From: Polychytrium aggregatum
Taxonomy: Eukaryota; Chytridiomycota; Chytridiomycetes; Polychytriales
Reading direction: 5' to 3'
DNA: 64,000 nucleotides
NCBI RefSeq assembly: GCF_025602895.1
Contig: NW_026516223.1
Location: 620,001 to 684,000 of the forward strand
Shown here: piece after piece, positions 10,611 through 43,865 of the stretch
Position numbering within the stretch: position 1 is the stretch's first letter
Layout of the letters: each line of letters opens with the position of its first letter
Program-made: the position numbers and the translations under genes
The notes under the pieces: generated by a model
Told to the model about the DNA's origin: nothing
The model's input: only the letters and a program-made list of their open reading frames with translations
The model's database searches: none

Positions 10611-12635
10611 CTAGATCGGTTTATCTTGGCTAGCGTCGGGAACAAGCCGATGGATGGAGATGTCGTCGGGGCTGAGAAAGGGTCCAAATCTTGGTCTGAA
10701 GCTGCTCAAGGGTGCCGACAGCGTCTGCGATTCTGGGGAAAGCGTCGGGGTTGACTCTGAAGAATCCAACTGGTGCACCGGCGAGTACCTCATCGACCAT
10801 GCTGCATTTGGGCTGGGATATCGACTCGGTGGTTGCGAGGCTGGACGAGGTTCAAGGCTAGGGTAGCCGCGTTGGTCAAGGACGAAGTATCGTGGCAACT
10901 GGAGATTTGAACAGGAGCTGCAGGAGCTGGCTGGGCCCGGCATGATGGGGCGACGTGGATCGTGCAGAGGCCCAACCGGCAATGGCGAGTGGATTCTGGT
11001 GGGATGAGTGCGCGATCTCAGATCAACGATCGTGCCATTGCCTGCAACATTCAAGATTGGTTCAAAGCCCTGATGGGTTATGGACTGATGTTTTACAAAG
11101 AGTTGTCGAGGGTAACCGGCCGTGGTATCATGTGAATACCCATGAGTGGCTCCGAAGCTGAGAGGACTCATTGGCGGTGGATCTGGGCTGCCGGCGGTGG
11201 GAATCGGGCGAGTGACCGATGAAGTACCTGGGAGGAACGGCGCTGATGAGCCCATTGGTCCGCTTGTCACTGTTTCGTCTTTCACCACACTGCCGTGACC
11301 CTGGCCCTTGTAGTAGAGCGGGTGAGTCCCCGAGAATGTCGTCGAGAGTGTCGTCGAGACTGCTGTCGGCAGTGTTCCTGCAAGCGGATCCGGGATGGTC
11401 GTCGAGAGCGATCCGCCAAATGCTTGCAGGTCCTCGATCGCCAGCTTGGTTTCATACACAGGCGAGACCGACAGGTGCGGGAGACTCGGAGGTGCCAGTT
11501 GGCCGGGTGGCTCGGGCAGTTCGGGTGGTCCCGGTTGGCCGTGTGGTCTTGCATCTGACAGCAGCGACACCGGGTGCTCGATCGAGGCATCGTATCGCGA
11601 CGAGTTGCGCATCGGCGAGGCACATCCGGCTTGGATGATGCGGTGGACATTTGGAATGCGCACGGCGTCGTGGGGGCGACAGTGGTCGAGGATGTAGGAC
11701 TCGGGGAAGTGGTGGGAGCCGGCAACGTGATGGGGTATGTGCGAGGGAGGGTGGTCGGCGACATGGGTGGCAGCATGGGTGGCGACATGGGCGACAGAGT
11801 AACTCGAGACATGGGCCATTGAATGGTGTGGGGTGTGGGTGGTGGAGTAGTCTGGAGCGTGAGCGGGGGAGTGGGTCACAATGTCGTCAGGCAGATGGAT
11901 GGAGGAATGGCCGGAGTAGCTCGAGTAGCCAGAGTAGCTCGAGTAGCTCGGGAGGCTGGGAGTGTGGCTCGGGTAGTGTTGGGTATGGCTGGCCGAGTAG
12001 TGTTGGGTGTGGTCGGATGAGTAGTGCTGGGGGTGGTCGGATGAGGAGACATGGCCAGTGAGATGGGTGTGGAGCGAGAGCCGGGAGGTCTCGGGGAGGT
12101 GGGCAAAGTGACCAGGGCCAGGACCAGGAATGTCTGCAGCAATCGCCGGGATGCCTGTGGTGTCTTGGATGCGAGCGACACCAGCGACATCTGCGATACC
12201 AGCAACACTCGGGATGCCTGTGGAGCCTGTGGAGCCTGTGGAGCCTGAGATGGCCGCGATGCCTGAGATGACGGCAATGCCAGGGATGCCAGGGATGCCA
12301 GGGATGCCAGCCGCAGCGACCCGAGTGTCGGGTTCGGCTGCAGAGGCAAGGAGACTCGGGCGACGGTGGAGTGGTTCGGAGGCCGACAGACCCGGGGCGC
12401 TTGCGAGATTGGCAAACGACAACTCGGACAGGGTCGAGGGCGAGGCCGTGCGGGCCAGTCCGGCGGGCGACGAGAAGGCAGCCAGATGATCGAGCTGGCG
12501 GCGTTGGAGCTGTTTGGCCCAGCGCCGGATGTGCTGAGGCTGGACACTATACTTTCTTGCCGTGGCCTTGATATTGCGAGGGACGGCATAGGCCTCGTTC
12601 ACAATCACACGCTTCTCGGCGAGGGATTTGGGCAT
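10611..12635 (-). CDS. HTH-A: helix-turn-helix protein with long low-complexity tail
   Basis: A single exon encodes 674 aa. The N-terminal region (about residues 5-45) is a compact helix-turn-helix: EKRVIVNEAYAVPRNIKATA, then ARKYSVQPQHIRRWAKQLQR. It matches HTH-C and HTH-D and has the flavour of the first helix-turn-helix of Tc/pogo/CENP-B-type DNA-binding domains; that placement is inference. The rest is low complexity: GIPGIPGIPG and STGSTGSTG repeats, a His/Ser/Tyr stretch built on SSDHTQHYS and SYSSYSGY, then Pro/Ser-rich sequence. No transposase catalytic domain is present, so it is probably a DNA-binding regulator. Codons for residues 7 to about 477 are near-identical to HTH-B, while the 197-aa tail is not. 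It lacks the intron seen in HTH-C and HTH-D. Confidence 0.82.
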   Translation of the reverse strand: MPKSLAEKRVIVNEAYAVPRNIKATARKYSVQPQHIRRWAKQLQRRQLDHLAAFSSPAGLARTASPSTLSELSFANLASAPGLSASEPLHRRPSLLASAAEPDTRVAAAGIPGIPGIPGIAVISGIAAISGSTGSTGSTGIPSVAGIADVAGVARIQDTTGIPAIAADIPGPGPGHFAHLPETSRLSLHTHLTGHVSSSDHPQHYSSDHTQHYSASHTQHYPSHTPSLPSYSSYSGYSSYSGHSSIHLPDDIVTHSPAHAPDYSTTHTPHHSMAHVSSYSVAHVATHAATHVADHPPSHIPHHVAGSHHFPESYILDHCRPHDAVRIPNVHRIIQAGCASPMRNSSRYDASIEHPVSLLSDARPHGQPGPPELPEPPGQLAPPSLPHLSVSPVYETKLAIEDLQAFGGSLSTTIPDPLAGTLPTAVSTTLSTTFSGTHPLYYKGQGHGSVVKDETVTSGPMGSSAPFLPGTSSVTRPIPTAGSPDPPPMSPLSFGATHGYSHDTTAGYPRQLFVKHQSITHQGFEPILNVAGNGTIVDLRSRTHPTRIHSPLPVGPLHDPRRPIMPGPASSCSSCSNLQLPRYFVLDQRGYPSLEPRPASQPPSRYPSPNAAWSMRYSPVHQLDSSESTPTLSPESQTLSAPLSSFRPRFGPFLSPDDISIHRLVPDASQDKPI
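11201..12614. repeat. near-identical duplicated tract, copy A (partner 19099-20512)
   Basis: The tract matches 19099-20512 colinearly at a constant offset of 7,898 bases. I see three substitutions within the first 50 bases at the left end (11216, about 11243, 11246) and none further right in any reading frame compared. Similarity stops abruptly at both ends, inside the coding sequences of HTH-A and HTH-B. Confidence 0.93.
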
Positions 12636-15600
12636 ACTGATAATCGAAACGCTGTGCAGATATCACTCAAATATGGAGTCATTCAAATTTGCTCTGGCGA
12701 TCGTGGGCGGAGGACTTGCAATAACGGGAAGCAGAGACAGGGCGGAAGACGAGACCAAAGAGGCGGAAGACCCTCAGAGTCGCTGGGGAGCAGGGGAGGC
12801 ATGAGTGACCAGGCCAGGGTTTATAACGAGATCGGCGGCCAGGGGCGCGCGGGAACGACGAGCACCAGGAGTCGAGGCAAGTCGCCACAGGTGCGACCAC
12901 AGGGCGGAGCAAGAGGTGCCTGGCGGGAACGCAGGAGGCGAGCCACGGACGGAGGATGTCGTTGGTCCGGAGGTGTGCCACAGTGTCCCAGCCGGCGGCA
13001 GGCCCGCACAGCAGGTTCTTTGTCCAGATGGATGGGCGAGCGGATGGAGTCGGACTGGTCTGCGACGAGGTCCCCAACGAGGTCTGCGATTGCGACCAGG
13101 CCGGTCTCAGTCCGGTCCAAGCTCGCAATTACTCCGATAGCACTCAAGGGCACCACCACAGAGCGCTCGCGAGTATCATGGGGCAGCATTTGTTGTTGCG
13201 AGGCATTGCGAGGCACTGCGAGGCACTGCGAGCGGAGAAGGGGCGTGGTCTGGGGACGCTGGTGGGCCCGAACAGCCTGCTCCGTTGGAGATGGCAGCCG
13301 AGCAGGCAATGGCGAGCCTTCTGTCCAAGAGGATCCACTCACGTTGGCAAGCGCAAACCAATTGTCGAGGCCGTCTTTTGATGCGAGCACAAGCACAGGG
13401 CCGCACAGGGCCGCACAGGGCAGCACAAGGGCGGGGGAAGTGGAGGCACGAAACGAGAACGACCAGACGGAGCATCGAGCATCGAGGCGGGCAACGCAAG
13501 GTGCGAATGCGAGGCGAACGATTGTTCAGAGCGACTGTTCAGAGCGATTGTTCAGAGCGATCGTTCAACGCGACCAGAGTGATGACCGATCAGCAATGAC
13601 GCCAGCGCTGCCCGGAGAAAGTGATCGCTGCAGACATCGGATCTCGACTGGATCGGATCGGATCGGATCGCTGCTGGGACTGCGGTTGTTCTGGCGTCCA
13701 CAGCGACCTGGGGGTTGAATTGCATCGGGGGCATTGCTCTGTTCCCGGGACCGTCGGCGAGTGCGTCCCAAACGTCTGCATAGGAATGCATTTCCGCACA
13801 GATCCGACTGGTGTCGCCCCGCCACTCTCCTTGGAGGTCTGCGGCATCGATGCTGTCGTCGCCTCCCACGGATGCACAGTGCCGGAACGACCCTCAACTC
13901 CTCTGCTCTCTCTGGCCATTTGCCAGGATCGACAGCGCCGCCGGCTTGCCTCCGCAACGCTTTGTTCATACCCTGGCTGGGATTGTCCCTCGATCCGACT
14001 CAGCACCGCCCGCCATCGATCTCCGAATGTGCCTTTTGCGAGTGGCGGAGGACAACCTCCGCGGCCAGTGTTTGGAGCTCAGCTCCTTCTGCTCAGCTCC
14101 TTCTGCTCAGCTCAATCTGCTGCCGCTCGTCTGTGCCCGCTGCCGCAGAACCCACCTTGGCTTGGCCAAATGGCGGTCGCTGGTACATCCCGGTGCTTCT
14201 GTCCTCCGCCGTGGGCGCTCGGTATCGACGGATGCTGGTCCCATGGCGGAGCTTATCTCGACTGTTGTTCTTGTATATGCTGGGTTGACTCTCAAGAATG
14301 TGGCTGCCCGTGCGTCCGCGTTGGGGGGGGGTCGTTCTCGTCATGTCGCATCTGTCGCTGACAGTCGGCCGATCTCAGCATCTCCCGCCAGGTGGGTCCA
14401 GGGCAGCCCGTCGGTATCCCCAGAGCATCTCCCGCATCGGGCTTGGTCGTCAGTAGTCGGCAGTCATCCATCAAGCACAAGCTACCGGCGACTCGCCTCT
14501 CTGGTCGGCTGCGAGTGGGTTGTCTTGCCACTAGCCCCTTCCTCCTGCGAACAGCGATGCCAGCCCGTCCGATGCGCCAAATGAAAGATGCTCCCATCGC
14601 TGTGATTGCCGGCTGGCTGCTTCTGCTCTTGATCTTGTGCGGCCCTTTGTTGCCGGCGATATCGATGCTACTGGTCCTGTGAGCAAATCGATCGGGCTTT
14701 GGATATGCGAGATCCCTTAGCTGATCCAGACTCACATGTCGCCCCTCAGCAATCAAACGTTCGATGGGATCCGAAGATGGAATCCAAAGATCGAATCCAA
14801 AGATCGAACCCGGAGATGGATCGCAGCCGAGTCCAGGAGACTCCTTGGTCCGGCGTTGGCAATGGGGCACCCTGCGAAGAATGGAGCTTGCTCTGTCTCG
14901 TTCCACCGCCACTGTCGCCTGATCTCACGAAGCGATCTCACGAAGCGATCTCACGAATGATCCCGTTGCTCCTGGAGACTGCTCCTCGAAAGCAGCCGCC
15001 ATGCATCGAGATCTATCCTCGATGCTCTCTGACCCCCCCCCTCTGATAGATCCCTTCCGGCGATTGATCAGGCGCTGCGGTGGCATCTCATTGCCTGTTC
15101 TGGAACGTACCTGCGCGGATACAACTCGGTGGAGGGGTCATCTTTCGAGTTCATGAGGGACAATGTCGCACCTGCTTGCAACAGGACCCGATTTGATTGC
15201 CGCTGGATGAACGAGGCTGGCTGCAACAGCGGCGGCGCCAACATGGCCAATGTCCTCGACGGAAGAGGCATCCCTCAGGTCCTCCAGGGCAGGACATGCG
15301 ATCGGGCTGGCCCTGGACACCGGATCTTGGACAACTGGATCCAGACAGCCGGAAATACAGATGATCAAGTTGCAGGCGGCCGGCAGCGATCGGGCAAGTT
15401 GGGTGCTGAGCAGGCATCGGGGCGAAACTTGATTCATGTTGGTCCTCTGTTGCATCCGAATGCCACGGCGGCGACATTGTCCAACTTGGATTGAGCTGCT
15501 CTGAACATCAATGACTGTCGGCTTCGCGGCAATGCCACAGCTAACCGAGCGATAGCGGCCCGAGCCAGTGTGCAGCATCATCTTGACGGGTCGTCGACTC

Positions 15601-18205
15601 CGGCCAGCAAAGACCAGGCCGCATTGCTGCCTTCCTCCAACAACAGTCCCTGGCCGCCGCGGCGATAATCAACAGCACGCGAAGACTCATGTAGACTCGT
15701 GAGACGCAGCGAGCATGGTAGAGGTCAAAGGGAGGACGAGCCTGGAGCAACTGCATTGGCTCTCTCGGAAACTTGGTCTCGGCGCAGATCGCTCCTGAGG
15801 CGATGCCCCCTTCGTCGTGGGCAAGTCTGCGGCCCAGGGCCATCGACCGCTTCCTCAGTCTCGTCCAGCCTGCTATCGGCATCCTCTATCGGGCGGGATC
15901 GGATCAAAGCTGGCCCCCCTCTATGGTCCTTGCTCGGCTGAGCGACTCGGCTAGCGGACGACGTCGTTGCCGTTATTGACGCTGGAGACCAACCTGGCAG
16001 TCCCCGGGGGGAATGGGCCGTCCATCTCCCTCTGTTTTCCCCTCCTGACCAGCAGCATTTGCGCCATGACCAGGACACTGCCCCCCTCCGTCCTCCAGCA
16101 AAGATGTGCATCGTGGCAAGATAAGAGCGGCAAAAACCAGCGAGGTGGAGGGGGGGGAGAAAGAGCCGGCCGTTGTGGACCAGAGCAGCGAAGGAGACCA
16201 GGCCGGGGCAAAGGAGGGAGACCAGATTCGGAGCAGGATTGGCGGATCAGAGGATCAGAGGATCAGATGATCAGAGGATCAGACTCGGGATCGGGCTTGG
16301 GCCTGGTTCCCTGCGGTCGAGCCGCTTTGCCCACCCAGTTGCCCAAAATCCCACCCGCCCCCACCCGGCCAAGGTCATCGCTGTCTTCATCTCCTCCAAC
16401 CTCGAGCCCGCCATCGTCGACTCTCAAATTTTCCCGCCGTCGATCCAGGCCCTGACACCGGCTCAGTCCAACTGACCATCCGGCATCGCTGCTCCGCTCG
16501 TCCCTGATCTTGGCCAGCGGGCTAAGCTGGAGGACGATGACTTGAGCTCTTGACCATCGCTCCACCGCCTACTCGTCCCTGCTGGCGCTGGCTCCGACCT
16601 GTACCCAGTCCTCCCTGTCTCATTCCAGCTTCCCTCCAGGCCACACACTAGTGTTTCAGTCGAACTCGCTGCTTTGCCATGCTATGCCGTGCTATGCCAT
16701 GGGAACCCATCCGACTGCAGACGTTTTTGTTGTTGTTGTTGTTGTTGCCCGCGCGAACTCCACGACATGATTCCGACATGGATTTGCCCGGCTGGTCATG
16801 CTGCCGACTACGAGGGGATCCAGAATGGGACCCCGTCATGGGAGACAAGCCAAGTCGCCTGATTCGCTAGGACCCAGAGAGGCCGGGTGGATGTCGGATG
16901 GGGATTTCGGGGGAAACTGGGTGGATGGCGGAAACTAGGGAGGGAGGGAGAAGAGGAAAGAAGCGATTCTGCTCCCGCACCCTCCACGACACACGCCAAG
17001 GCCACCGATATTGGGGGTCGAAGTCGCTGGTATATTGAACACGTTGGTTGAAGTAGCAATGGTGGAGGACGAAAACGGTCGGTGCTGGTGGGATTGACCA
17101 ACGGGGAGCGCCAGCGTAATGCAGGCCGACAACCTTCTGGGCTGGTGACAGTAGAGTCGAAGGTGGAGTGTGAGGGTAAAATGGAGGTGAGGGCGAAGTT
17201 GAAAGTAAGGGCGAGGGCAAGGATCAGATCGAAGAGGCTGGGGGACTACCTGCGGCGCAACGGAGCAAGAGAAAGCCGGGCAGTCGAGCCAGAGTAAGCT
17301 ATATCCAAGCAGAACACAGAAACCCAAATGAAAATAGCAGAAAAAATGACCACAGTAGTGAAATTGATATAACAGTCACCAATATCCACAAGCACGACGA
17401 CGAAGGTATATGGAGGGCACGGGGGGAAAGGAGGAAGTTTCAATAAAGGAAGAAACAATGGAAAAAAAAACGGCAAGGGCAAACATTCCTTGGTATTGAG
17501 GAGAGAGAGCAAGGTCGCTCGATCGTTAGGAAATCGAGGCAGTGAGGGAGGGACGAGGATATCGAGAGGAGCGTTAGAGTGGGGATGTCAGAAGCCGAAT
17601 CGAGTCTGTGAAAGCAGCGCAACGTGCGAGAAATGCAAATTTTCAAAGAAGAAATGAAAGGCATTGAGATTTGAACAAGATGTAAAAGATTTTGGGGGGA
17701 AGGTGTGGGGATAACGATATGAGAGGGGGGGGTGCGAAGAACAGTCGCAAGAGAAAGAAATGAAACATGTGGATGGAGATATCAAAAGGAAGATTGATGA
17801 AACAACAGGCAAGGGCATGGATTGATGGGACCAAGTCAAAAGAAAGGAAGGCGAGAACAAAAGAAGGGCGAAAAGACCGCTGCCTGGAATCAGCAGAGGG
17901 GAGCTGCGGGTACGATGGAGGGTTGGTGATGTGCAAGAGCTAGATGCAAAATATGCAGAAACAGAGGTTTGTCACAGGATGGGTCAATGCGAGGGGCAAC
18001 TGGTGAAAACCGTCGTCGGTCTGTCAATCACGGAGGCGGAGGCTGAGGTGGAGGAAGAAGCGTACTAATCTTGAGCGAAGGGCAATGCGAGTCCAAGGGT
18101 TGGGTGGACCGGGAACGAAGCAACGATGGAAGTTCAAAGAAGGCTTCCGTCAGGGCGAGGGCAAGGGAGAATGCCACCCCTCATCGGACTGTTCCATTGA
18201 AACGA
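12636..18205. other. long spacer between HTH-A and HTH-B with many short tandem repeats
   Basis: No gene is convincing. The left part is the 5' flank of HTH-A. Short arrays occur at 13200-13235 (GAGGCACTGC), 13400-13430, 13515-13568 (13-14 bp unit ending TTCAGAGCGATTG), 14085-14125, 14925-14960 (GATCTCACGAAGC) and 16245-16285 (AGGATCAG). From about 16890 to 18205 the + strand is strongly purine-rich and AT-richer. Read on the minus strand it is a pyrimidine-rich tract downstream of HTH-B, probably a long 3'UTR. Weak hints of a small secreted protein on the minus strand at 15070-15690 are not strong enough to call. Confidence 0.35.
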
Positions 18206-20533
18206 TCAAGGAAGATAAGGGATGTAAGGGTTTTGCTGGTCTCCCTGTGGGTGCATCGAGATTGCATTCATTCCAGAAGAGGTCGTTGGGAAACTGGGGG
18301 AACGCGATGGGGATGGACGATAGTACTTTGGAGGAGACGCAGTGCTCTGAGGATACGGGTAGAGAGGGGAGACATCCAGAGGGGCTGCAAAGGTAATGTC
18401 TGTCGGACAGACCTCGATGGGTGGCGATGTTCCATCGACTGGGGCGGTTGCCATCGCCGGGGTCGAGAACGAATAGTGTGGCGAGGCCACGGAGAGAGAA
18501 CGGGAATCGGCCAGGATGCCGGGGCTGGGCTGGACAGAATGGGCAAGCGAATAGAGGGATGGATCGCATGACGACGGTCGCGTGGCTTCAAAATCGTGGG
18601 TGTTTAACCGGACGGAGCTCATCGGGATGAAGTAGCCGAGGGTCTGGGAGCCTGATGGGCCGCGCAGACTCGCCAGACTTGGGAGTGACATCGGGGCCGG
18701 GAGACTGGTGACGGCGGAAACGACCGAGGCATCGGGCGAGGTAAAGCTGGACTGGGCGGACATTGAGGGCTGTCTCGAGGAAGCCGGGAGGCTGGAGGAG
18801 CTGTCCAGTGCGAGGGGACCATCACACACCGAGTTCAGGATCTCATAGTGACTGCAGCGTCGTCTTGGGGCATGGGATTCGATCATGAGCGAGTTGATCG
18901 ATCGCGACTCGCGTCGGGCACTTGGTGGGAAGGCTGATGCTTGAGGGTACGGTGACGATCGCACAGATCCTGACGGGCGCGAGGGTGGCGCGCAGAGCTC
19001 GGCAGGGAAGGACGACTCGGATGGGTTGTGCGGTTGCGAACGGAGCCAGCTCTCGGATTGATCGAGGTGAATGGGGAAGGTGCTGACCTGAGACATGGGA
19101 ATCGGGCGAGTGGCCGATGAAGTACCTGGGAGGAACGGCACTGACGAGCCCATTGGTCCGCTTGTCACTGTTTCGTCTTTCACCACACTGCCGTGACCCT
19201 GGCCCTTGTAGTAGAGCGGGTGAGTCCCCGAGAATGTCGTCGAGAGTGTCGTCGAGACTGCTGTCGGCAGTGTTCCTGCAAGCGGATCCGGGATGGTCGT
19301 CGAGAGCGATCCGCCAAATGCTTGCAGGTCCTCGATCGCCAGCTTGGTTTCATACACAGGCGAGACCGACAGGTGCGGGAGACTCGGAGGTGCCAGTTGG
19401 CCGGGTGGCTCGGGCAGTTCGGGTGGTCCCGGTTGGCCGTGTGGTCTTGCATCTGACAGCAGCGACACCGGGTGCTCGATCGAGGCATCGTATCGCGACG
19501 AGTTGCGCATCGGCGAGGCACATCCGGCTTGGATGATGCGGTGGACATTTGGAATGCGCACGGCGTCGTGGGGGCGACAGTGGTCGAGGATGTAGGACTC
19601 GGGGAAGTGGTGGGAGCCGGCAACGTGATGGGGTATGTGCGAGGGAGGGTGGTCGGCGACATGGGTGGCAGCATGGGTGGCGACATGGGCGACAGAGTAA
19701 CTCGAGACATGGGCCATTGAATGGTGTGGGGTGTGGGTGGTGGAGTAGTCTGGAGCGTGAGCGGGGGAGTGGGTCACAATGTCGTCAGGCAGATGGATGG
19801 AGGAATGGCCGGAGTAGCTCGAGTAGCCAGAGTAGCTCGAGTAGCTCGGGAGGCTGGGAGTGTGGCTCGGGTAGTGTTGGGTATGGCTGGCCGAGTAGTG
19901 TTGGGTGTGGTCGGATGAGTAGTGCTGGGGGTGGTCGGATGAGGAGACATGGCCAGTGAGATGGGTGTGGAGCGAGAGCCGGGAGGTCTCGGGGAGGTGG
20001 GCAAAGTGACCAGGGCCAGGACCAGGAATGTCTGCAGCAATCGCCGGGATGCCTGTGGTGTCTTGGATGCGAGCGACACCAGCGACATCTGCGATACCAG
20101 CAACACTCGGGATGCCTGTGGAGCCTGTGGAGCCTGTGGAGCCTGAGATGGCCGCGATGCCTGAGATGACGGCAATGCCAGGGATGCCAGGGATGCCAGG
20201 GATGCCAGCCGCAGCGACCCGAGTGTCGGGTTCGGCTGCAGAGGCAAGGAGACTCGGGCGACGGTGGAGTGGTTCGGAGGCCGACAGACCCGGGGCGCTT
20301 GCGAGATTGGCAAACGACAACTCGGACAGGGTCGAGGGCGAGGCCGTGCGGGCCAGTCCGGCGGGCGACGAGAAGGCAGCCAGATGATCGAGCTGGCGGC
20401 GTTGGAGCTGTTTGGCCCAGCGCCGGATGTGCTGAGGCTGGACACTATACTTTCTTGCCGTGGCCTTGATATTGCGAGGGACGGCATAGGCCTCGTTCAC
20501 AATCACACGCTTCTCTGCAAAGGTCTTTGGCAT
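18206..20533 (-). CDS. HTH-B: paralogue of HTH-A with a different C-terminal tail
   Basis: A single exon encodes 775 aa. The start reads MPKTFAEKRVIV where HTH-A reads MPKSLAEKRVIV, with different codons for the first residues. From residue 7 to about 477 the two proteins are almost identical, sharing the HTH and all the GIPG, STG, HTQHYS and SYSG repeats. The last 298 residues are unrelated to HTH-A: Ser/Pro-rich, with stretches such as FPIHLDQSESWLRSQPH and RSPSFPTTSSGMNAISMHP, and ending in NPYIPYLP. No other domain is recognised. It is probably a nuclear DNA-binding protein. It shares orientation with HTH-A, about 5.6 kb away, as expected for a tandem duplicate. A long pyrimidine-rich 3' flank follows the stop. 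Confidence 0.82.
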   Translation of the reverse strand: MPKTFAEKRVIVNEAYAVPRNIKATARKYSVQPQHIRRWAKQLQRRQLDHLAAFSSPAGLARTASPSTLSELSFANLASAPGLSASEPLHRRPSLLASAAEPDTRVAAAGIPGIPGIPGIAVISGIAAISGSTGSTGSTGIPSVAGIADVAGVARIQDTTGIPAIAADIPGPGPGHFAHLPETSRLSLHTHLTGHVSSSDHPQHYSSDHTQHYSASHTQHYPSHTPSLPSYSSYSGYSSYSGHSSIHLPDDIVTHSPAHAPDYSTTHTPHHSMAHVSSYSVAHVATHAATHVADHPPSHIPHHVAGSHHFPESYILDHCRPHDAVRIPNVHRIIQAGCASPMRNSSRYDASIEHPVSLLSDARPHGQPGPPELPEPPGQLAPPSLPHLSVSPVYETKLAIEDLQAFGGSLSTTIPDPLAGTLPTAVSTTLSTTFSGTHPLYYKGQGHGSVVKDETVTSGPMGSSVPFLPGTSSATRPIPMSQVSTFPIHLDQSESWLRSQPHNPSESSFPAELCAPPSRPSGSVRSSPYPQASAFPPSARRESRSINSLMIESHAPRRRCSHYEILNSVCDGPLALDSSSSLPASSRQPSMSAQSSFTSPDASVVSAVTSLPAPMSLPSLASLRGPSGSQTLGYFIPMSSVRLNTHDFEATRPSSCDPSLYSLAHSVQPSPGILADSRSLSVASPHYSFSTPAMATAPVDGTSPPIEVCPTDITFAAPLDVSPLYPYPQSTASPPKYYRPSPSRSPSFPTTSSGMNAISMHPQGDQQNPYIPYLP
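19099..20512. repeat. near-identical duplicated tract, copy B (partner 11201-12614)
   Basis: This is the colinear partner of 11201-12614. Its right border falls six codons inside the HTH-B start, and its left border lies in the middle of the HTH-B coding sequence, where the two genes become unrelated. Confidence 0.93.
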
Positions 20534-25654: not shown

Positions 25655-28428
25655 ATGCTCACGCTCTACGCCGAGCCGTTCCTCAAGCGGCACTATGCCC
25701 CGCTGTTCTCGTGGGCCTCGCTCTCGCTCGCGCTCACGGCCGCCGCCGGGCTCGTTCTGCCGTTTGTCCTCGCCTATGCCTCGGGATGTACGTCCTGTCT
25801 CAACACAAGCACCGAGTATTCGTGGGGAGAGCGATTAACCAATGACATCGACAGCGGCGTTGTCGTCGCTCGGCTGCGGTGTGCTCGCGATTCGACATCC
25901 TTGCGACGGCTGTCCTTTCTCCCTTGCCGCTCGCGTCGGCCTCGTGCATCGTGCTCACCCCTTTCCGCTCTCTTGTCTCTCCGGTCTCGGGGTCTTCCCA
26001 TGCCGCCCTGCCGCGTGCCCGACTGATCCTCGCCGTCGATAACGGCTGTTCCTCTGCGGTCAACCCTCCCCATTGGTCTCGTCGGGCCATCCCCGGCTCG
26101 TATCTGAATTGGGGCTTGCATCTGCGACCGGCGTCGGGGACCTACATTTGGGGCCGGATCGGTGCCCGTGTGGTTTGGCGCATCCCCCGGCCGACACAAC
26201 TGGATGGCGCTGGCGGTCATTCTATGAACGGGCCAACTCAATACCACCCTGCTCGCCTCCAATGACGATGGCACCGCAACACACACCGGCACAAACTGGC
26301 TCCTCTATGGCACCCCGCTCGTCTGTATGGCCATGGCGCCGAACGCCCATGCACGCCGCGCCTGCTTTGGCACTCGTCGTGGCGCCCAACAACGCCCCGG
26401 GATCATGCAATGCCACTCAATGCCACTCAATGCCACTCAATGCCACTCAATGCCACTCAATGCCACTCAATGCCACTCAATGCCACTCAATGCCACTCAA
26501 TGCCATGTAATCCACTCCGATGCACTCCAACCCACTCCAACCCAATCCAATCCAATCCAATCCAATCCAATCCAATCCAATCCAATCCAATCCAAACTCA
26601 ACGGAGCTCTTTCACCAGCCTTCTGGCTCAAGCTGGCGACCTCCTTTGAGCAGCCCAAGGTCGGATTCACGGGCAACATGGTCCTGTTACTGGAGGGCAA
26701 CGTGCGCGCTGCCTCAAGCATCCTGCCGCTCTCGATCTATTGGGCATCCAGCGAGGCCTACAACGTCCATTACAACGACCACACCCGCGTGCCCACCATC
26801 AAGGTAACATTGCACCATCTCTTTCGTCTCTCTCCTCCACCGAGCATGCTGCTCGGCTGGCCTCCTTGTCCGCCCGGATATTTGCTTCGTTGCCAGCCAT
26901 GCGCATGATAGCTGTGCGGCTGATTGGTCTGCCTGCTCGCCTGTCTGCCTGCTCGCCGGCCTGCCGGTCGGCTTGTCCTTCGTGGGCTCTCCAGCCCGGC
27001 CCAAGCCTGACACTCCCCCTTCTCGGGCTCACGCCACCGAGATGGCCGTGTTCATCATTTTTGGCTTCCTGAGTCACGATCGACACAAAGGTCCGATCTG
27101 CCAGGCGCTTTGGCCGGATGGGGGGGGATGGCAGACTACCAGTGGCAGTAACGACTCGCACACCCGTGTCCAGCCCACCCCCAGAAGGTTGAATGCTGGT
27201 CCATTGAGCCAAAGTGCAAGAGAAAAGAGTGCCAGCGAAAGACTTTCGCGCCTCTTTGCTCTTCCCCCATGCCTACGCTTTCTGCGCAACGATGGACACA
27301 CTCCCATGCCCGTGCTAATCTCACGGTCCATCCTCCCTCGTCGTATCGGCTCGCAATCTAGTTCCGAGATACGGATGTCAATCGGGACGGCATCGTGGAC
27401 TACTTTGACCTGTGGTTGACCATTCCGCTGCGTGACAACGAGGACATTTACCACGTACGACTGGGCTTGGAGATGCAGTATGTCCTTTACGTAAGTTGCT
27501 GTGTGAAGTAGTCTCCTGGAAGAGGCCTGCGTCCCCAGTCACGACGTAGATGTGGGCTATGCTTTCGAGGATGTAAACCGGGACGTTGTGGCTCCTGGCA
27601 GGACTGTGAGATGTGAGAGCGATAGTTGCAAGTCTCCGCGGCCTCGGACAAGATAACCAAACCCAATTCCGGCAAGAGACAAGCCACTGGCTGCTCATAT
27701 CGCATTACAGAACTAACTCGATCGATACCACCCTTGCCCATCGCACTCGACCCAACTTTGAATACCCAGGATGTCATTCGCTTCAAGATGAGCGCGCTGG
27801 CTCTGCACGATCTCATGACGACCACACCGGGCTCGTCTGTGGATGTCGAGGCCGATCTGCAACTGGTGCAACGAGACCGAGTGCGCGACGGGCGCCTCTG
27901 GGACATGAATGCCGACCCGATCTGGAACTTTACAGACTCACGCTCGACTTGGGAATGGCGTGCAGTCCTGGAGCGATACAACCAGCGCGATGGTGGGTTG
28001 GACGACAGTCGATGGGCTTGGGAACGGCGTGGGGGCTCTGAGAACGGTGCTGTGAATCTGGCTCGACTCCATGAGAGTGACAACCACCACGGCCAAGATC
28101 ACAGGTGTGCTTACCGCTCTTGTGCTGCCCATTTCTAGTGCGGACAACGCTTGCGCCTTTGACTGAGCTGTGGCAGGCTCCTCGCGCTCAATCATCCAAT
28201 TTTCAAATCCACACCCGCATCCACTTCCCGGAGCAAGCAGTCACCTACCGGCCCAAGCTGGCCGAAACCCTCAAGAGTGGCTGGATCCAGTACATATCGT
28301 TTCTGGTCTTGTTCTGGGCGGTCAGCAGCTGGGTCTACAGCTTCATCTTCCGACATCAAATCATTCGCACCTACGTTCAGCCCGACCGGGTACCCGCGAG
28401 CCGAGGTTTCAAAACGCATTCCTTCTGA
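25655..28428 (+). CDS. TMEM231: TMEM231 homologue, ciliary transition-zone membrane protein (6 exons)
   Basis: Exons 25655-25787, 26607-26803, 27362-27490, 27770-27992, 28078-28104 (27-nt microexon) and 28139-28428 keep frame throughout and give 332 aa, close to animal TMEM231. The first membrane helix is SWASLSLALTAAAGLVLPFV. Family-typical features follow: SPAFWLKLATSFEQPKVGF, the acidic DTDVNRDGIVDYFDLW block, VEADLQLVQRDRV, and the C-terminal TLKSGWIQYISFLVLFWAV entering the second helix. In animals TMEM231 is part of the MKS complex that anchors the transition zone and gates entry to the cilium. Here it implies a flagellated zoospore stage. Intron 1 (819 nt) carries two tandem-repeat arrays. 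The start is the only ATG before the first helix. Confidence 0.92.
26402..26505 (+). repeat. 10-bp minisatellite (AATGCCACTC), about 10 copies, in TMEM231 intron 1
   Basis: Perfect tandem 10-mers end about 100 bases before the exon 2 acceptor. They read open in all three frames, which produces spurious repeat ORFs. Confidence 0.95.
26540..26597 (+). repeat. AATCC pentanucleotide array in TMEM231 intron 1
   Basis: About ten tandem AATCC units end about 10 bases before the acceptor at 26605-26606, in place of an ordinary pyrimidine tract. Confidence 0.93.
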
Positions 28429-31432: not shown

Positions 31433-33388
31433 ATGCCCGTTCCCTCAGAACCCGCAAAGCCCCGCGCCAAGCGCTTCAGTGTCGTGCGCTACAACCTCAG
31501 AGAAAAGCTCAAGATCGTCACCGAGGCCTACAGCAAGCCTCGAAACATCAAGCCTACCGCCCGCCGGTTCGGCATCCCGGCTCCACACATCCGCCGATGG
31601 CATGAGCAGCGCCAAGACATTATCAAGCGCCTTGAGGAAAACAAGGAGGAGAACCTGACCATCCACCGTGGCCGGCGACCCAAGTACCCCGAAGTCGACA
31701 AGGGGATCCAAGACTTTATCGACAGCTTCAAGGCCAGCCATGCCGGTGAGTAAGCTTGGCCGAGGATCAGAATCAGGGTCCTTGGCCTTGGTCTTGGTCA
31801 GAAGATCACAGCACTTGGGTCAATCATACCCTCCGCAGGGTGCAACTGCATATCCCTTGCAATCCGCACGGCCCATGGCGCCGCCCCTTCCCTCCCCCTG
31901 TCCCCATTTATCCGAAGCAACGCCCCCCTGCAATCCAATCCAATCCAATCCAATCCACCGGCCGATCAGCATAATCGTCCTTGTTTTTCAGTGCATGTCC
32001 GCACATTCGACAGCATGAGTGTCCGTACCCTGTCTCATCCAGCTCTGCCCTGACTCTTGCGGCCCACAGACCAACCACCCCAAACCGCCGACATTGTGCT
32101 GTATGTGCAGGAGTGCCATCCCCATTTCCGCGGCGGCCTCAAGGAGAAGATCCTGCGGCATCTGTACATGCTGGCCGACCGTGAAATCATCACGCTCTCC
32201 AACCGCCGTGCTCGCAAGGAAGGCCAGTCCTGCCAAGCATCCCAGAGCAAGCGAGCTGCCCTGCGACGCAGTCAGACAAGCTCGTCCGTATTGTCGTCCT
32301 CGTCAACACTCTCGCCGTCTCCGCTGTTCGACATGGAGGCTGTGTCTTCGCAGGACAGCGACCAGTTCGTTTGCTCGAACCTCTTCGTCGGCGTCAAAAA
32401 CGACTTGATTGCCATGACGCCAGACCCCTTAATGAACCTTGGCGCCGATCAAGATCCCACCCGAGCCTACTACCTCGATATGGACCAAGCCATCCATTCC
32501 ATTGATGCGCTCAGCCATGGAGCGCTGCAGGATCCCTCGTCCGGCTACATTACCTTCCCTTCATCGCTGGTGTGTGCGTACGATCCCGCCATTCCGCCTG
32601 ACTACGAGTCTCGGGGTGGACCTGCCGACTCTGGCTGCGGTTACATCTCAGATACAAACCACTCGTTCTATGTTGGCTTGGACTCTGCCGTCGAAGATTT
32701 TGCTCAGTCCACTTCCAGCGAGCACCACGGTGACGTTTTGGTAACTCCCACACGAAGACCCCGGGTCGATACTGGTCTGGCGGCTGGCCGAGCGGCTTTC
32801 GTCGATGGCTGCAGCCCGTACCCGCCCAGCGTCTGCGAAGACTTTATTGCCCGAGGCACCGAACTGGTGTCGGCTTCGGGCATGTTCCAGCCCCGGCTGA
32901 TGGCCAGCATGGTGTCTCCCATCAGCTCGACCGAGTCAGTGTACCCAAACGCCTATGGCTGCCCTTCCTCGCCCTGGGCTCCGAGCCCCATCAGCCCGGC
33001 GATCCAACTCTGCCCGCCGACTTGTGTCGAGCCCAAGCCCATGTCGCAGCTCCGCAGACGGTCTGTGCTCGGTCCCGTCCAAGTCGACGCTGCCATGCCT
33101 CCTCCGACAGCCATCCACAACCGCGCGGTGCCCATCTCGATGAGTGCTCGATACAGCGACTTGGCCATCCTCAGCCCCGCCGACGGACTCGAGCATCGGA
33201 TCTTCCCGGGGGTGGTTCCTGGACCCATGTCGATCGGTGCTATCTACACGCCGATGGCCATCGGTCTCCCCGGAGGCCTGATTCCTACCTACTCCATGCC
33301 GCTCGACAACACAAACGGCCGAGGCTTTGCCGAGACCATCATCCAGGGCTCTGGCTGCTATTCCACCGGCTTGGTCGAGCGCATTTGA
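31433..33388 (+). CDS. HTH-C: HTH protein with CENP-B-like second half (2 exons)
   Basis: Exons 31433-31745 and 32070-33388 are joined by a GTGAGT...CCACAG intron and give 543 aa. The HTH at about residues 20-58 reads KLKIVTEAYSKPRNIKPTAR, then RFGIPAPHIRRWHEQRQD. A second block (about 75-140), split by the intron, contains GRRPKYPEVDKGIQDFIDSF and then TADIVLYVQECHPHFRGGLK and ILRHLYMLADREI. This resembles the second helical part of CENP-B/Tc5-type DNA-binding domains, making HTH-C the family member closest to a transposase N-terminus. A Ser-rich stretch and a long region without recognisable domains follow, and there is no DDE catalytic core. It is probably an exapted DNA-binding protein. 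The start was chosen just before PVPSEPAKPRAKRF, because the upstream open frame is only CAC-repeat coding. Confidence 0.85.
31932..31955 (+). repeat. short AATCC array in the HTH-C intron
   Basis: Four AATCC units lie within the single intron, the same pentamer as in TMEM231 intron 1. Confidence 0.8.
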
Positions 33389-36517: not shown

Positions 36518-38317
36518 TTACTGGCTTGGGCGGAACGTCGAGACACCATCGTCGTGCAGCTCGGCCGGGTAGCCGCCCGCTGGGGCATATTGGATGGTTG
36601 GAGAAACGCTGGCGTTGGGGTACTGGGGCATCATGCGGTAGTCCTGGGAGGATTGGGCTTGTAAGGCAGCAGTGTAGAAGCGCGAGGGTATGGGTCCACG
36701 GCAGATGACATGGTTGTTGAGCGGCATGAGGGCGGGAGGCTGGTCGTACAGTTCGCGGGAGGCAGCGGGAGACGGGAAGGTTTGGATTGGGTCGTAGGGA
36801 GACATTTGGTCGTAGCCGGGGCCAAGGGACGGCACGGAGGAATCAAAGCCTTGGGGATCGTCGATGGGCAGGGTGAGCTGGAAGGATGGCGACGAGACGT
36901 ACGAGACCGAGGTGGCTCTGGCAAAGGGCATGGCATGGTAAGGGACAACGGGGGTGGTTCCGGGCTGTGGGATCGAAGACAAGACCGAGGCGGCGGGGTT
37001 GGTGATGAAGGCGGGGACGGAGCCGACGGACGAGGGCGACCAGGCGGGAAGGAACCGAGACTGTTCGCGCGAAGCCGGATGGTGAGCCTGGGGATGGAAA
37101 AACTCTTGGCTGGCATCGCCGATGAGCGACATGGGCGTGTGGATGGGACTGAGTTCGGGCGACGGGATGGCAATGTTGAGGGTCACCGGGTTGAACTGGG
37201 AGGGAAGGAAGGCCTGGCCCGAGAGCAACGAGTGCTGTGTGAAGGCGGGCTGGAGCGAGGCGAAAGAAAGCAACGGGATGATGAGAATCACGCACAGCCG
37301 AGCGGGCGAGTTCGGGATGGCCAGCAACGAGGGCGGATACCACAGCCAGGGAGCATCCAAAACGACGGCGCAAGTGGAGAATGGATGGATGAATAAATGG
37401 ATGGATGGGGTTGCATGAGGAGGGGGGATCCAACAACCCGCAGCAGGCGAAGCCGACAAGTGACAGGCAGCCGATGCATCAGCAGCCGGCAAGAGTCATC
37501 AGATGTCGCACGCGAGCAGCTGGAAAGGGGCATGACAAACATGGGGGCCAGAGACAAGGGATGTGTGTGTTCATGGGGACAAGAATGATGGGGCACGCTG
37601 GAATGCTCCATCCTTGCCAGGATCTCCATCCTTGCGAATCACGCCGGGAGGCCATACATTCGCAGGCGGCAACCGGAGACTGGCAAAGCAAGCAAAGCAA
37701 AGCAAGCAAGGCAAGGCAAGGCAAGGCATGCGAGCAGGTGGACCCGAGATGCACCCGAGGGGGCCGAAGTGGTAGACGGGGCAATGTGGGCAGGAGCAGA
37801 CACGAGGGCATGGACAGAAGGTGTGGGGATATGGATGCGGTCGAGGAAACAGGAATGTGGGACCATGGCCGATGAAAGGCGAGATGGAAGGGAGATGTGG
37901 ACCATGGCCGATGGAAGAGAGGACTGGGGGGGGAGGGGTTCCAACGACAGGAGGCAAGGCAGATGTCTGCGTGGGGCGTATTCATACCTGGGCGAGCTCG
38001 TACATGGGCAGATGAGGCGATTCCGTGGTCGTGATGCTGGAGGCACCGCCCATGGACAAGCCAGGGATGTTGGCGACCAGGGTAGTCTTTGTGGTGGCAG
38101 CGACGGAGCGTCTGGAGCGAGACAACGACGACGACGACTTGCGAGGGGCCGAGGAAACAGGGCGACCCAGAATATCTCGGGTCTCGATCTGATGCTTCCA
38201 GCGGCGGATATGCTGGGGCTGCACCTTGAACTTGCGGGCGGTGGGCTTTACATTACGGAGAATGCTGTACGCCTCCTGGACGATTTGGATTTTGCGTTCC
38301 CAAGGGATACGGGCCAT
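36518..38317 (-). CDS. HTH-D: HTH protein with Pro/Ser-rich tail (2 exons)
   Basis: Exons on the complement are 38317-37988 and 37249-36518, joined in frame by a GTATGA...CCAG intron, giving 353 aa. The start reads MARIPWERKIQIVQEAYSIL; the HTH continues RNVKPTARKFKVQPQHIRRW, sharing VQPQHIRRW with HTH-A and HTH-B. A basic Ser/Arg stretch (SSSLSRSRRSVAAT) follows and may act as a nuclear localisation signal. Exon 2 encodes a Pro/Ser/Tyr-rich tail with no recognised domain, ending STFRPSQ. The intron lies about 110 codons in, close to its position in HTH-C (105), which suggests a shared ancestral structure. It is probably a DNA-binding regulator. The 3' flank is long and pyrimidine-rich in gene sense. 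Confidence 0.82.
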
Positions 38318-43644: not shown

Positions 43645-43865
43645 GCATGCAATTCAACAGATCACCTCCGAGCGAAGACCGCCGGTCGCTCTCCGGTCTC
43701 CACAATCGACATGCACACTTGGACACGCTGAATATGGAGCCAACCTTTCTCAGGCTATGGATGAGGGCGAAGCACCACACTGCAGAATGGTCATGGCCAG
43801 CGCGCGATGTTTTGAGGCAAAATATTTGATCAATGGTCACAAAACCAGGGTGACCCGGTTTTCTT
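43645..43865 (-). repeat. dispersed repeat, copy 2 (inverted relative to copy 1)
   Basis: The reverse complement matches 804-1002 with small insertions. Conserved blocks include CATCGCGCGCTGGCCATGAC and GTCGATTGTGGAGACCGGAG, and the leading end reads CGGGTCACCCTGGTTTTGTG. It lies about 640 bases downstream of the zinc-finger gene, in that gene's sense orientation. A minus-strand AATAAA follows near 43566-43571. Confidence 0.65.

Follow-up and report, generated by a model that had tools for sequence, protein, structure and literature searches.

How have two neighbouring genes of a flagellated fungus come to share a nearly identical stretch of about 1.4 kb, with unrelated sequence beyond it on the 3′ side of both genes? 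The window analysed here is a 64,000-bp stretch of Polychytrium aggregatum DNA (contig C124, positions 620001-684000), and the genome searched comprised 64.7 Mb in 418 contigs. Profile searches of this genome returned 71 matches to the chitin synthase family (top E 4e-229; the profile also rings in four of 14 control genomes) and 14 matches to the flagellar IFT46 family, to which none of the 14 control genomes matched. The two genes, hereafter A and B, have the same orientation and lie at loci 7.9 kb apart:

10611..12635, minus strand: gene A, a single open reading frame of 674 residues, with a likely HTH N terminus, a shared middle region and tail A
18206..20533, minus strand: gene B, a single open reading frame of 775 residues, with a likely HTH N terminus, the same shared middle region and tail B

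A comparison of the window with itself delimited a core of 1420 bp that is common to both genes, with three mismatches, no gaps and an identity of 99.79%:

11198..12617, minus strand: shared core in A, from codon 7 to codon 479 plus one base, 99.79% identical to 19096-20515
19096..20515, minus strand: shared core in B, the same in both haplotype contigs (see below)
11198..11247, minus strand: tract-end zone, containing all three differences between A and B (47 of 50 bases equal)

An earlier, sequence-only reading of this locus had described two colinear, essentially identical stretches, and these are confirmed; its limits (11201-12614 and 19099-20512) have to be moved outwards to those listed above, and the end of the similarity, rightly placed in mid-gene (near residue 477 in that reading), falls after residue 479 plus one base. 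The clustering of substitutions at the left border, reported by the same reading, was found again: the differences at 11215, 11242 and 11247 are all at most 50 bp from this border, which is the 3′ one in the genes. Two of them change residues 465 and 474, and the remaining one is silent. Calculated post hoc, the probability that three randomly placed sites would all be within 50 bp of the same end is about 9e-5; with 11242 and 11247 taken as a single event, and hence with two sites, it is about 2e-3. The core also holds short tandem arrays (14 overlapping rows at a score of at least 30), a class of sequence that is usually quick to change.

In the genome, the core gave seven DNA matches. Among the best candidates scored, four of these were full length and correspond to A and B on C124 and to their counterparts on a second contig, C98; the other three were short (66-98 bp). 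The possibility that the core is a mobile element was rejected, since the full-length matches among the best candidates scored represent two loci on two contigs only; by eye, no terminal repeat or target-site duplication was seen in the 20 bases on either side of the borders. Besides the core, the only self-match of the window at E up to 1e-5 was a 75-bp inverted repeat (927-1001 and 43645-43719, 89% identical).

The N termini of A and B belong to a small family. A genome search with this region returned 13 places, corresponding to nine loci when the C98 counterparts are counted with C124: A, B, one locus on C112, one on C24, three on C301, and two further loci in the window, at 31433 and 38317. 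Four of the nine loci lie in a stretch of about 28 kb of the window, which holds a cluster of four HTH genes, the two extra ones lying 11-18 kb from B:

31433..31753, plus strand: third HTH-family gene, first exon only; further exons perhaps within 32057-33388
37985..38317, minus strand: fourth HTH-family gene, first exon; a further exon probably within 36518-37260 (join by eye)

The fourth gene appears, by eye, to contain an intron of about 0.7 kb. A second cluster, of three HTH-family genes whose N termini have diverged from one another, is found at about 121.5-131.1 kb of C301.

The N-terminal 45 or so residues match the Pfam profiles PF01527 (HTH_Tnp_1) and PF09607 (Brinker-type). For PF01527, the whole proteins scored 18.2 (A) and 17.9 bits (B), and the N-terminal 63 residues alone 23.6 and 23.5 bits, in all cases below the cut-off of 24.1, which was passed by six of the seven other family stretches. 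The cut-off of PF09607 was passed by two of these seven, with A and B again below it, and a match to PF04218 (CENP-B N-terminal), also below cut-off, was limited to the gene at 31433. Pfam reported no transposase catalytic domain in A or B at E up to 1, and a sequence search of the PDB gave two matches that are too weak to be used alone (E 0.27 and 0.42); Brinker is among them. Compared with the known HTH_Tnp_1, CENP-B N-terminal and Brinker-type domains, A and B thus show an N-terminal match that stays under the cut-offs. Because A and B come near the cut-off and six of the seven other family stretches pass it, their N terminus is likely an HTH of the transposase/Brinker type, and it may be supposed that both proteins bind DNA. 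The description of the two genes as DNA-binding in the earlier reading is to be qualified accordingly: it depends on HTH profile matches in which the Pfam threshold was passed by most of their relatives, and not by A and B themselves. The middle region had only four weak genome matches, all outside the family (E 0.001 to 0.007), so that no other HTH-family member was found to carry it among these. A search for relatives in viral contigs gave 29 pattern matches, none of which was confirmed.

The family is of particular help in interpreting the right border, which is the 5′ one in the genes and at which identity begins with codon 7:

12618..12635, minus strand: codons 1 to 6 of A, beyond the core, with homology to B and the family
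20516..20533, minus strand: codons 1 to 6 of B, beyond the core, with homology to A and the family

These first six codons have 12 of 18 bases and four of six residues in common, with silent differences at three codons. They had been described as different, which is true of the DNA; they are however not unrelated, since the residues of both genes follow the family N terminus in an alignment of eight of the nine loci from the start codon (the gene at 31433, which has a longer start, was omitted and aligned separately). A one-residue gap is common to A, B and the C112 locus in the family alignment. As the first six codons are homologous and in register with the family, the 5′ border lies inside homologous sequence; each gene evidently keeps its own older start, and A and B look like older paralogues that were made identical over the core.

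The left border is of another kind, as similarity stops at once beyond the last 50 bp of the core. Outside the tract, homology is thus confined to 18 bp at the 5′ end, and at the 3′ end to the last 50 bp of the core itself (47 of 50), with nothing beyond. The alignment of the two loci, which had been proposed as a check, gave sharp borders and unalignable flanks, and the claim that the flanking DNA differs was borne out in the 3-kb flanks, where four comparisons (blastn, word size 7, E up to 0.1) revealed no similarity between A and B. With nothing detected in these 3-kb flanks, flank homology left by an old segmental duplication was rejected. In gene B, the codon straddling the core border (19094-19096) reads as an in-frame ATG; it may be a trace of fusion to a separate gene, and is treated here as chance.

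Beyond the left border, the two reading frames continue into different tails, counted here from residue 480:

10611..11197, minus strand: tail A, 195 residues, Pro/Ser-rich
18206..19095, minus strand: tail B, 296 residues, Ser/Pro-rich

The tails are unrelated, as had been stated, with lengths of 195 and 296 residues in place of the 197 and 298 given before. Hidden homology was sought in nine local alignments involving the tails, the core and the C112 and C24 loci, and was rejected, as none of them scored clearly above its 300 shuffles. In the five comparisons that set a tail against the opposite tail or against C112 or C24, the score was reached by 0.70 to 0.93 of the shuffles, in the two comparisons of a tail with the core by 0.78 and 0.88, and in those of the post-HTH part of the core with C112 and C24 by 0.22 and 0.17. 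In the genome, tail A found itself, its allele and five weak matches (E 0.04 to 0.24) that were taken as compositional, and tail B recovered nothing besides itself and its allele at an E limit of 1; under the same limit Pfam had no match in either tail. Past the border, the reading frame runs without a stop for 194 (A) and 295 (B) codons, and the other five frames contain 3-14 stops. Since only 0.75-0.9% (A) and 0.1-0.5% (B) of 4000 trials with first-order random sequence were as open, and since the other frames are interrupted by stops, both tails are probably coding. Both proteins remain open into their tails in both haplotype contigs.

The second contig, C98 (64,588 bp), can be aligned over its whole length with C124:598297-661962. 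Five of the six colinear pieces longer than 1 kb are 99.49-99.83% identical, and the remaining one, which includes a repeat, 98.86%. On this alignment C98 is very likely the other haplotype of the contig that holds the window. Paired matches on two contigs were frequent in other searches of this genome, in agreement with an assembly that keeps both haplotypes, although each of the family loci on C112, C24 and C301 turned up a single time. With heterozygosity this low, there is a small chance that C98 is a duplicate contig and not an allele; against this, it has SNPs and indels of its own.

C98 carries both cores, matching A and B by position and with the same borders. The worry of an assembly collapse is thereby largely answered at the level of assemblies, as distinct from reads. 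The copy of B on C98 (B′) does not differ from B over the core, and that of A (A′) differs from A at two sites and by one extra, in-frame 9-bp repeat unit. At 11247 and 11242 A′ has the state of B, and at 11215 that of A; A′ and B′ accordingly differ at one site and by the 9-bp unit, compared with three sites between A and B. Two SNPs separate the contigs in each tail; those in tail A are silent at the protein level, and those in tail B change one residue.

These two contigs also provide a yardstick for the age of the sharing. Two alignment pieces that run crosswise between A and B, and a third in a repeat, were omitted before counting. The rest holds 185 SNPs in 63,406 aligned bases; 139 of these SNPs fall in three 1-kb bins, at least two of which overlap a tandem repeat. 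The other 46, in about 60.7 kb, amount to a background of about 0.08%. Most of the SNPs counted lie in a stretch to the left of the window (C124:616699-618112, against C98 18295-20824), a tandem repeat with many shifted alignments. Within the window, positions 26000-27000 contain 26 SNPs in 981 aligned bases, far over background; the colinear alignment breaks there at 26478/26498, perhaps at another repeat. The divergence between the paralogues A and B is of the same order as that between the alleles, and the sharing of the core is for this reason considered recent: the cores appear to have become identical at about the time of the haplotype split, or after it. At allele age, the chance of finding zero differences in the 1370 bp of the interior is about 0.30 (rate 0.09%). 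With so low a background rate their absence is not surprising, which places a bound on the age and does not prove ongoing conversion.

The reading that we prefer, with a probability of about 0.6, is that the joining of core and tails is older and that the core was recently re-homogenised by ectopic gene conversion. A and B would belong to a local cluster of paralogous HTH genes in a eukaryote whose chitin synthase and flagellar genes make it most likely a zoosporic fungus. An older, non-homologous event would have put the HTH-plus-middle core before two different tails. Later, ectopic gene conversion across 7.9 kb would have overwritten one core with the other, the last such event being about as old as the two haplotypes, or younger. 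The conversion tract would extend from codon 7 to at most 50 bp from the tail junction, where the leftover differences sit, and the copy may have reached different distances in the two haplotypes. The outcome would be a pair of proteins that have a likely DNA-binding region in common and differ in their Ser/Pro-rich tails. The comparisons show the near-identity, its borders and recency, both copies on both contigs and the relation of the N termini to the family; conversion as the mechanism, the two-step order of events, DNA binding and the role of the tails are inferred.

Several observations argue for conversion: the sharply bordered near-identity over 1420 bp between unalignable flanks; the position of all three differences at one end, with A′ in the B state at two of them; the near-identity in spite of tandem arrays that normally change fast; and the grouping of four out of nine family loci in some 28 kb of the window. 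Given the homology of the first six codons with the family, conversion between two paralogues already in place is more plausible than an insertion into an unrelated gene. On the other hand, the tail border has no detectable homology, for which conversion alone offers no explanation, and no other family member was among the four weak genome matches of the middle region, so that a prior recipient copy cannot be shown; both points count against conversion. That A and B were separate genes before the tract arose is attested by no more than 18 bp at the 5′ end and about 50 bp at the 3′ end, and the two differences that separate the alleles near the border may be ordinary SNPs. Base composition by codon position gives no direction for the conversion. 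Everything measured is compatible with the explanation put forward in the earlier reading (recent ectopic gene conversion, or a duplication in which the tail was replaced).

The main rival, which we regard as unlikely although worth serious attention, is a single recent step, in which template switching or break-induced copying carried the core of one gene into an HTH gene already present and created a new in-frame tail junction. Copying would have started in the homologous HTH and ended by non-homologous joining inside the coding region of the recipient. Such an event would agree well with a 5′ border in homologous sequence and a 3′ border devoid of homology, and with a full-length core that is confined, among the best candidates scored, to A, B and their C98 counterparts. 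It is less easily reconciled with three differences that crowd the 3′ end, where the haplotypes differ as well; both observations suggest that A and B had the last 50 bp in common before the latest event took place. A whole-gene segmental duplication, with the promoter and the tail of one copy replaced separately, is highly improbable. The same orientation and the 7.9-kb spacing would suit it, but the flanks are without similarity, the replacement would have to be two-sided in a time too short for the core to diverge, and six homologous codons, three of them differing silently, would not be expected; the earlier verdict that a simple whole-gene tandem duplication fails is endorsed by the dissimilar flanks and the diverged first codons. 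Least probable of all is an artefact of assembly or polishing (a spurious second core, or interior differences erased by multi-mapping reads), for although the evidence comes from assembled contigs and every difference lies near unique flank, as polishing errors would leave it, C98, with its own SNPs and indels and the 9-bp unit in the interior of A′, shows both copies with the same borders, the frames stay open into both tails, and erasure could hide some differences but could not create borders.

The proposed conversion has parallels in other organisms. In the mammalian homeobox genes TPRX1 and TPRX2, the closest precedent, conversion is reported to have repeatedly homogenised the 5′ DNA-binding part more than the downstream part (PMC8208926). 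As in A and B, these are paralogous transcription-factor genes in one locus with a homogenised 5′ part; their downstream parts are alignable and many species are covered, whereas A and B have unrelated tails and come from one genome, with an HTH of transposase type and a tract of 1.4 kb (PMC8208926). For Aspergillus flavus and A. oryzae, another account describes recursive ectopic gene conversion among the paralogues of one region (PMC12844118). Near-identical fungal paralogues, a single region, an attribution to recent ectopic conversion and changed gene structures are common to both cases; in Aspergillus alone, conversion was inferred from trees with an outgroup and spreads stop codons that split genes, and a pair with a shared head and unrelated tails is not described in the sections consulted (PMC12844118). 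Among the titles and abstract openings listed from an open-licence library, no fungal pair of this type was found, which does not prove its absence. The A/B pair is a clear example of a known process, and not a new kind of system.

As such, it offers a clean and datable case of how conversion can equalise the likely DNA-binding half of two proteins while their tails stay different. It also implies that a tree of the HTH family built on N termini would misplace A and B as very recent duplicates, with which their first codons and tails disagree. A and B may bind the same sites with different outcomes. A stronger proposal is that conversion, repeated and kept by selection, holds their DNA-binding and middle region identical while the tails stay different, so that in a flagellated fungus they act as two regulators tied to one set of targets, with outputs that are opposed or alternative to each other. 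It appears improbable; if the two proteins do bind the same sites, the pair would represent a natural test of competing regulators.
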